This document shows positions 29,976 to 32,111 of a stretch of DNA of 39,608 nucleotides, piece by piece (the stretch's first letter is position 1; each line of letters opens with the position of its first letter). The translations under genes and the position numbers were made by a program. Where the stretch lies: positions 1 to 39,608 of IMG/VR virus record IMGVR_UViG_3300031643_000005. The stretch is one strand, 5' to 3'. Under the pieces are notes generated by a model that was given only the letters and a program-made list of their open reading frames with translations, was not told the DNA's origin and ran no database searches. This DNA is from a virus.

Positions 29976-30565
29976 CGTTGCCATCGCTGTGCCTATGCTG
30001 GGCTGCGCGTCGCCCCGCAGCGCCTCGCCCTTGCTGTGCTGCGCGCTGCTGCGCCGTGCCCCGCCTTTGCTGTGCCGCGCGCTGCAGCGCCCCGCCACGC
30101 CTTTGCTGTGCCACGCATTGCCGCGCTGTGCCCTTGCTGTGCTGCGCGCTGCTCCGCCGTGCCCCGCCTTTGCTTTGCTCGGCACCGCGGCGCAACGCCG
30201 CGCTTGGCCTTTGCTGCGCTTGGCTCTGCGTTGCCATTGCTGTGCCCTTGCTGTGCTGTGCCCAGCCGCGCCCAGCCCCGCCCCGCCTTTGCTATGCCGC
30301 GCCCAGCCCCGCCACGCGCTGCCTTTGCTTTGCCCTGCCTCGCTTTGCTCCGCACCGCGCAGCCGCGCCCCGCCTTTGCTGTGCCTTTGCTTTGCTCGGC
30401 ACCGCGGCGCATCGCCGCGCTGCGCCCCGCCTTTGCTGTGCGACGCATCGCCGTGCGTCGCCCTTGCTGTGCTGCGCGCTGCTCCGCGCTGCAGCGCGTC
30501 GCCCGGCCACGCCTTTGCTGTGCAGCGCGTCGCCGCGGCGACGCGCTGCATTGCATCGCTATCGC
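29976..30565. repeat. Pentanucleotide-phased array, (NNNGC)n on the plus strand
   Basis: On the plus strand GC recurs every five bases for about 590 bases (for example TGTGC TGCGC GCTGC TGCGC CGTGC CCCGC). About every 2-10 units one extra C precedes a unit of type TTTGC, CTTGC or ATTGC. The other three positions vary widely, so this is not a simple microsatellite. All six frames are largely open, because TA is rare, and give five-residue-periodic A/Q/R/K or A/C/P/L peptides. No frame is a convincing gene. This stretch accounts for the gap between the genes at 29920 and 30559. Confidence 0.9.
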
Positions 30566-31227
30566 TTTGTCAACTCATACTCGAAGGAACCCCACCCCCC
30601 GTTTCTCCACTGCCCGAGACCACGCAGCGCGCCGTAAGTGAACCATTCCTCTAGCAGGCTTTGCTTCACCACCCCGAGAATCAATACGCGAAATTCCATG
30701 GTGGTGCCTGCCGGGACGGCGATGCTCCTTGCCAATGCGACGCGCTCGCCTTGTGCCGTTTGTCCACGCAATGGCCGCGTAAGCACGCCCTCGTCGCCTG
30801 CCCATTCCCAGAGCCCCATTGTCGATACGGGCGACTCACTGGCGTCTTGCCCCTTCAGGCCCAGAGGAATTAGCCGTGGCTCTACAAATACCATCCCATC
30901 GATGACCTTCTTGTAGGCCCGCACCTTGGCGCTTGCCGAGCTAGTATCGCGCCGAAGCATCCCGCAGGCGTCCTTGAAAAACCCTTTCAGCACGTAGTCA
31001 TACAATGCAGGCTCCCCGACAGGTGTCCTGTGGAATCCTGTCGTGCCCTTCGTCGTCTCCTCATCGATCCCCTCAAATCCCAATGCCGCCGATTCGAGTT
31101 CGTCCGCCGCCTGCTCTGGGTCGATCCCCCGATGATCTATAATCCATCTCCGATAGAGCTCAGGATCAAGTGGCACTGCGCCTAGCAGCGCCCTTGTGAA
31201 TGTCAGTTGCACATCGTAGCGGTCCAT
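30559..31227 (-). CDS. Conserved phage protein with RAMP-like glycine-rich C-terminus (222 aa)
   Basis: GGGGAGG precedes the ATG at 31227. The N-terminus MDRYDVQLTFTRALLGAVPLDPELYRRWI has a form I know from many unnamed phage proteins (LTFT-x-LLG-x-VP-x-DP). The C-terminus reads YGALRGLGQWRNGGWGSFEYEL, a Gly/aromatic loop reminiscent of RAMP-fold RNA-binding proteins. Similarity to Cas RAMPs is only a resemblance, and there is no CRISPR array here. The last codons overlap the first units of the pentanucleotide array. Confidence 0.75.
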   Translation of the reverse strand: MDRYDVQLTFTRALLGAVPLDPELYRRWIIDHRGIDPEQAADELESAALGFEGIDEETTKGTTGFHRTPVGEPALYDYVLKGFFKDACGMLRRDTSSASAKVRAYKKVIDGMVFVEPRLIPLGLKGQDASESPVSTMGLWEWAGDEGVLTRPLRGQTAQGERVALARSIAVPAGTTMEFRVLILGVVKQSLLEEWFTYGALRGLGQWRNGGWGSFEYELTKR

Positions 31228-31341: not shown

Positions 31342-31641
31342 TCATCCTCCTTCTCCTTCTGCAGGGGGCTTCTGGTATCGTGTCTGGTCTTGCCGTTTCC
31401 CCTCTGACTCGGCACACGACGCTAAGCCAAGGTCCCGATAGAGCTTCGCTAAGGCCCGCGCGTTGTGTTCTCTAACTTCCAGTTTCCTCTCTTTTTTCAC
31501 CCACTTCTCCCAAGGGTTATTGACCCATGTTACCTCGAACTTGTCATCCATCACGCCCAGCGCCTGAAGCAATTCCAGTTCGCCCTCTCTCGCCACCAAC
31601 ACTACTTTTTGCGCCTGGGGATCCGCCCCAATCCATTCCAT
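31342..31641 (-). CDS. Small paralogous protein A (99 aa)
   Basis: GGAGGGGAGGGG precedes the ATG at 31641. The core KVVLVAREGELELLQALGVM followed by DKFEVTWVNNPWEKWVKKER is clearly related to the protein at 31742..31960. The C-terminal 45 residues are charged and unlike the paralogue. Function is not recognised. The conserved W-V-x3-P/Q-x-EKW patch suggests a protein-interaction helix. The 114 bases after it hold no confident gene, only a weak 57-codon frame overlapping the next start. Confidence 0.7.
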   Translation of the reverse strand: MEWIGADPQAQKVVLVAREGELELLQALGVMDDKFEVTWVNNPWEKWVKKERKLEVREHNARALAKLYRDLGLASCAESEGKRQDQTRYQKPPAEGEGG

Positions 31642-31741
31642 CGCCCCTCCCCTCCATATCGTTCATGACGTCACCGTCAGCCCTGTGCTCGCTACCACTG
31701 CCACGCGGGGTCCCTAGCCGCCCGATAAGCCCCTCAACAAT

Positions 31742-31960
31742 CTACCATCCCAGCAATAGACGCCTTAGCCAAACCACAAACCCGCCCTCTGTAACTTCCG
31801 GTTCCCTCCGTGTCTGCAACCACTTCTCACACTGCGTCTCCACCCATGTTACGTTGAACTCCTCATTCAGTAACCCCAACTTGGCGAGCAACTCGAATTC
31901 GCCCTGCGTCGCCAGCAAAGCCACTTTCCCCGCCAAATCCGTCCTGAGCAACTCTCTCAC
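31742..31960 (-). CDS. Small paralogous protein B (72 aa)
   Basis: Start GTG at 31960 with GGGGG just upstream. Residues 10-58 (KVALLATQGEFELLAKLGLL, then EEFNVTWVETQCEKWLQTRR) align with protein A without gaps in the core. It ends in a short hydrophobic VVWLRRLLLGW tail that protein A lacks. It appears to be a tandem duplicate that has diverged in the last third. The 100-base gap to protein A holds no clear gene. Confidence 0.65.
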   Translation of the reverse strand: MRELLRTDLAGKVALLATQGEFELLAKLGLLNEEFNVTWVETQCEKWLQTRREPEVTEGGFVVWLRRLLLGW

Positions 31961-32024
31961 CCTACCCCCTATGTCATCCGTAACGTCGCTTCCGTCTACA
32001 AATCGCCCTGCTAGCTTTCATCTC

Positions 32025-32111
32025 TCAGACATCCATGCCCCGTCGCGAATACTCCACCGCCAACACGACTAACAGCGCCCAAGCCACGATTGCCACAGGC
32101 CACACCATCAT
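32025..32111 (-). CDS. Single-pass small membrane protein (28 aa)
   Basis: GGAGGAG lies directly before the ATG-ATG pair at 32111. The peptide MMVWPVAIVAWALLVVLAVE is one hydrophobic membrane segment followed by a short basic tail (YSRRGMDV), which predicts the N-terminus outside. It lies 13 bases below the zinc-ribbon gene. Function unknown. Confidence 0.55.
   Translation of the reverse strand: MMVWPVAIVAWALLVVLAVEYSRRGMDV

Follow-up and report, generated by a model that had tools for sequence, protein, structure and literature searches.

The window analysed here, that is, the whole 39,608-nucleotide stretch of the viral record IMGVR_UViG_3300031643_000005, carries on its minus strand the gene of a small predicted RAMP-fold protein, directly followed by an array of GC-led five-base units. 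The features of this locus are listed below.

30559..31227, minus strand: gene of a 222-aa protein with a predicted RAMP fold (Vipr-like, Cas7/Csm3 superfamily), directly upstream of the array and in the same orientation
30580..30621, minus strand: C-terminal glycine-rich loop region of the predicted RAMP protein, RGLGQWRNGGWGSF, nearly invariant in the family alignment
29977..30565, minus strand: pentad array of 114 GC-led units, with the minus strand as RNA sense, read from 30565 to 29977
30468..30512, minus strand: hexamer-free run of nine pentads (GCGTG GCCGG GCGAC GCGCT GCAGC GCGGA GCAGC GCGCA GCACA), the candidate guide for the target search
30462..30467, minus strand: example of a block-ending hexamer, GCAAGG; the consensus is GCAANG then GCA, and 19 six-base steps delimit the blocks

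Anatomy of the pentad array

A previous sequence-only reading of this DNA reported a GC every five bases over 29976-30565 and proposed autocorrelation at lag 5 as a check. The periodicity persists on computation: lag-5 identity over this interval is 0.556, whereas 500 first-order Markov controls averaged 0.324 +/- 0.023 and reached 0.390 at most, and the window as a whole averages 0.26. The minus-strand parse is complete, with 114 consecutive GC steps, of which 94 measure five bases, 19 measure six and none has any other spacing; first-order Markov controls give a mean of 30 consecutive GC steps and a maximum of 86. A chance origin of the five-base rhythm is excluded. What was first described as an extra C before a (T/C/A)TTGC unit is, on the minus strand, a six-base step resembling GCAAAG (GCAAAG ten times and GCAAGG four times, besides GCAATG, GCATAG, GCGATG, GCGATA and GCCGCG). 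Since the six-base steps are mostly of this kind, the array consists of blocks of 5n+1 bases. The same organization is observed across 104 loci, the window included, where the hexamer consensus is GCAANG, then GCA, and the inter-hexamer blocks again measure 5n+1 bases, most commonly 26, 31, 36 or 41, and hold mainly four to seven pentads. Random slips do not account for the six-base steps.

The three positions outside GC were initially taken to be free. They do vary, but not equally, as the first base after GC in the window array is a purine in 85 of 95 units and the remaining two positions are mixed. Over the 104 loci, the relaxed pentad consensus is composed of a G (about 0.91), a C (0.52-0.68, otherwise mostly A), a position rich in purines and then two mixed positions. 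The base preceding GC is not fixed, G making up only 0.27-0.33 at p5. The overlap with a stop codon was also correctly seen: the array, on the same strand as the 222-aa gene, starts over the last two codons and the stop of that gene (TAG, 30561-30559), so that this stop lies inside the first units. The partner gene itself, the hexamer punctuation and the block hierarchy were absent from the sequence-only reading.

The window blocks are partly duplicated. A comparison of related genomes for expansion or contraction of units, also proposed at the outset, identified a contig (L179/L005) whose flanks, where compared, are identical to those of the window but which lacks one 330-bp array piece, a difference that could also stem from repeat collapse in assembly. 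No Rfam family was detected in the window, and no CRISPR-like repeats were found at the locus. Folding of the array RNAs revealed no excess over pentad shuffles (z about 0) and no structured 3' tail; a selected hairpin, considered as a candidate, was rejected on this z value.

Elsewhere in the window, two small ORFs upstream of the RAMP gene (about 31342-32040, minus strand) resemble tandem paralogues sharing E-L-L-x-x-L-G ... F-x-V-T-W-V ... E-K-W, and five near-identical 129-bp tandem repeats with 94% matches occupy positions 56-698, near the contig start.

The adjoining gene and its linkage to arrays

The AlphaFold2 model of the 222-aa protein (pLDDT 86, pTM 0.83) retrieved type VII Cas7 (8yhd_B, E 2e-8) and Csm3 (E 3e-7) in Foldseek, and a VIA structural comparison with Csm3 (6xn3_F) gave a Z of 12.5 over 171 residues. 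The BFVD match, A0A8S5R426, is a phage 'Cas system-associated RAMP superfamily protein' with 44% identity. At the sequence level, a profile of 24 relatives searched against the PDB pointed to type VII Cas7 (E 0.0085) and Csm4 (E 0.014), and seven of these 24 family members have weak matches to Csm4 models. Pfam, PHROGs, NCBIfam and PADLOC contain no family for the 222-aa protein, its relatives reaching weak Csm4-like matches only. The glycine-rich loop has the form GLGQWRN(S/G)GxG, of the GLGQWRNSGKGRF type. On the strength of the model, the 222-aa product is predicted to be a RAMP protein with a glycine-rich loop.

Relatives of this protein were collected from 23 loci in bacterial assemblies and 80 viral loci, giving 103 loci, or 104 with the window. 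The bacterial loci belong mainly to Oscillospiraceae and other Clostridia, and also to Coriobacteriia, Synergistaceae, Sedimentisphaerales and Verrucomicrobiota. With the unit parser, a pentad array was found at most 2.5 kb from the RAMP relative in 102 of the 103 loci (103 of 104 counting the window). A stricter lag-5 profile places the array mostly directly 3' of the RAMP stop or 5' of the RAMP start; it detected no array at two loci (L177 and L188) and none near the gene at a third (L190). The relative at L177, without a strong array, is among the most diverged members of the family. In five phages (L248, L255, L160, L167 and L175), the RAMP gene has an array on each side. The same rhythm and the same hexamer recur in distant phages of 0.39-0.72 GC. 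Neighbouring gene families recur in at most 29 of 96 loci, and the recurrent ones are general temperate-phage genes; none of the window's neighbours is conserved.

The search of viral contigs for GC-phased arrays, suggested by the sequence-only reading, was performed on DNA alone with the pattern GC(NNNGC)x9 and returned at least 120 viral loci. Among the matches listed, a RAMP ORF adjoins the arrays or lies between them in 88 of 120, many of them members of the Vipr family of phage SUSP1, and the 32 without a RAMP match include plain microsatellites (L078, L091). In the controls, none of 17 unrelated loci had a RAMP ORF, and a set of 882 ORFs yielded the Vipr of phage SUSP1 itself and nothing else. 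Read in the orientation of the RAMP gene, 65 of the 88 RAMP-linked arrays among the matches listed are of the GGC/NN form. A window-family profile search of 16 pattern-found contigs gave no match because these contigs carry another Vipr lineage.

The pattern-found loci (L036-L155) also display other Vipr-linked cores, namely CGC/NN (for instance in L046, L069, L112 and L145), which is largely confined to one clade of the RAMP tree, and GCA/NN (L040, L055, L081, L144). In some canonical arrays, separators recur periodically: GGCACCGCA in L070 (5699-6008) and GGCTACCTCAA in L131 (464-958). Five loci (L066, L093, L101, L109 and L147) have four-base units, GCCT as printed, which together with separators represent other guide punctuation.

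Comparison with VIPR and other RNA-guided systems

According to a 2026 preprint (PMC13142463 / bioRxiv 2026.04.26.720920), the Viral Interference Programmable Repeat (VIPR), exemplified by Escherichia phage SUSP1, combines a small phage RAMP protein, which has an RRM-like core and a glycine-rich loop, with vrRNAs of 9-16 GGY/NN pentads, then a structured 3' tail; through their NN dinucleotides, these RNAs read double-stranded DNA, skipping one base per unit. In the same preprint (PMC13142463), VIPR silences competing phages and is shown to be programmable, an accessory vap gene beside vipr is typical, and seven types are distinguished, some with 'a related consensus', staggered overlapping arrays being reported as well. 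Since an HMM built from three pattern-found loci with canonical arrays finds the SUSP1 Vipr (E 4e-32), whose gene is flanked by GGYNN arrays, and since the VIPR description agrees, we assign the window locus to the VIPR kind. Profile-profile comparison of the window family with the pattern-found, canonical Vipr family gave E 2.3e-7, with a probability of 93.5% over 127 columns; with a single profile, the window family matches the SUSP1 protein weakly (E 0.011). In the RAMP tree, the window clade is split from canonical Viprs by a branch of 3.4 changes per column, with a support of 100/100. Canonical-type Vipr is also present in 129 phage records (H5-H44), mostly of Felix O1-like Escherichia and Salmonella phages, plus Gordonia, Mycobacterium and Pseudomonas phages, and is called 'hypothetical protein' wherever annotated.

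Like the SUSP1 system, the window locus has a small phage RAMP with a G-loop, remotely homologous to Vipr, and tandem pentanucleotide repeats in flanking non-coding DNA, in which a fixed core alternates with hypervariable bases. The core itself differs, being NGC/NN with a relaxed first position instead of the GGY/NN (YNNGG) of VIPR. Since GC is kept but the preceding base is not fixed to G, the locus is classed as a VIPR variant. Further differences concern the splitting of the window array by GCAANG hexamers into 5n+1 blocks, mostly of four to seven pentads and with no separate structured tail seen, whereas vrRNAs have 9-16 repeats and a tail. The window lineage has no conserved vap gene, and its RAMP clade stands on a long branch separate from canonical Viprs. 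The window system may be one of the seven published VIPR types. It could otherwise form a VIPR-like lineage outside these seven, with continuous NGC/NN arrays, GCAANG punctuation, no discrete GGY/NN guides and tails and no accessory protein, in phages and prophages of Clostridia, Coriobacteria, Synergistes, Planctomycetes and others; this assignment is tentative and we consider it rather doubtful.

The window RAMP also shares its fold (Z up to 12.5) and glycine-rich loop with Cas7/Csm3 of class 1 CRISPR-Cas (types III and VII), whose subunits align along the guide RNA. Unlike class 1 CRISPR-Cas, the window has a single gene, no CRISPR repeats and a pentad rather than a six-base periodicity. 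No cas family was found for the RAMP and nine nearby genes, one HTH protein weakly matching Csa3 and CARF models (E at least 0.0024). The effector of TIGR-Tas is not known to be a RAMP protein, and the anatomy of its array differs from that of the window array. Set side by side by description, from general background and a review (PMC12385481), TIGR-Tas and the window locus are alike in having a compact guide array beside one effector gene.

Candidate reading register, rival explanations and proposed mechanism

When the GC of the window units is aligned with the GC of GGC, the reading dinucleotide falls at positions 3-4. At these positions, TA is depleted in this lineage, with an observed/expected ratio of 0.59 (0.50-0.69), to be compared with 0.59 at codon positions 1-2, 0.62 in canonical NN and 0.82-0.84 in other registers (0.84 at positions 4-5). 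The dinucleotide distribution at positions 3-4 is closest to that of sense codon positions 1-2. Through composition rather than pairing, and hence indirectly, this supports positions 3-4 as the reading dinucleotide, with coding DNA read while the wobble base is skipped.

A target search in 2 Mb of phage DNA, with skip rules 0-3 and several registers, gave no excess over shuffles; it lacked power, since the canonical GGC/NN positive control likewise gave none. A scan of viral contigs with the gapped guide in register p4p5 returned no match, nor did a 20-base gapped pattern from a third locus. Read in register p3p4, the block 30512-30468 hit one conserved gene, about 1300 codons long, in eight contigs, and there the skipped base is the wobble base. 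A second window block in the same register, however, matches two unrelated sites, so that these results are at chance level and such single 18-base matches are not evidence.

We favour the interpretation that the array and the RAMP gene belong to a tailed phage and form an RNA-guided system resembling VIPR, divergent from the published core, with a probability of roughly 0.86. Several other explanations were weighed against it. If the array were a functionless pentanucleotide microsatellite that had slipped and decayed, this would account for whole-block changes, as with the 330 bp absent from a near-identical contig and the partly duplicated window blocks. This explanation, already discounted by the sequence-only reading, is rejected and has a negligible probability because the GC rhythm persists across phages of 0.39-0.72 GC; moreover, every unit retains its GC despite the diversity of the other three positions. 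It is likewise extremely improbable that the array codes for protein, whether as a repeat with pentapeptide periodicity or independently of frame. Long open frames do cross the window array, three of the six frames being open over its extended length, and the near absence of stops in all six frames was rightly noticed in the window, where it results from composition. This is not a trait of the relatives: among 91 long arrays, none is open in all six frames, roughly half are closed in every frame, and the lengths fall evenly into the three classes mod 3. No single protein frame common to these relatives explains the pattern, the five- and six-base steps rotate the frame, and the tested array frames have no Pfam match.

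A cis-acting DNA element, such as a replication origin or a recombination or packaging site, would fit the mean GC step of about 5.17 bases, near half a helical turn, and the position of the array between phage replication and terminase genes. The strict linkage is, however, to the RAMP gene and not to replication or packaging genes, and the array lies on either side of the RAMP gene in unrelated phages, making this option very improbable. Half-turn helical phasing, one of the initial hypotheses, was dropped. The RNA could also be bound by the RAMP without guiding it, as a scaffold, a sponge, a store of RAMP or a decoy, for instance one occupying host Cas7-type complexes in the manner of an RNA anti-CRISPR. 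RNA binding alone would suffice for the RAMP linkage, and the target searches established no natural target. On the other hand, a scaffold would not need freely varying non-GC positions or a codon-like signature at positions 3-4, and the related VIPR is programmable according to the preprint (PMC13142463); we therefore hold this explanation to be unlikely. The earlier proposal that the five-base rhythm itself is selected is partly supported: its RNA version fits the linkage in more than 100 phage loci to a RAMP-fold protein, of an RNA-binding type, and the VIPR architecture, but its frame-independent coding version is not supported, as the arrays share no open frame.

In the favoured RNA-guided system, the array would be transcribed from the minus strand, either together with the RAMP gene upstream of it or from a separate promoter. 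RAMP subunits would line the RNA, one per pentad, each holding the NGC core and exposing the next two bases. By analogy with VIPR, these dinucleotides could pair with DNA pentad by pentad, with one target base skipped, usually the codon wobble, and the bound complex could repress genes of rival phages or satellites that share the host. The GCAANG hexamers, recurring every 26-41 bases, would punctuate the array, probably as guide ends, processing sites or guide overlaps.

The system is of a known kind, VIPR, described in 2026; what may be new is the variant grammar and the RAMP clade, possibly already included among the seven types. The rhythm alone suffices to find such arrays in raw DNA, and more than 100 loci are provided for decoding guide ends and targets. 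VIPR breaks the rule of uninterrupted guide-RNA pairing, and CRISPR has been proposed to descend from it. With a second grammar of arrays, tied to a RAMP lineage of its own, the essential parts of the code (GC core, two reading bases, one-base skip) could be told apart from those that are free.
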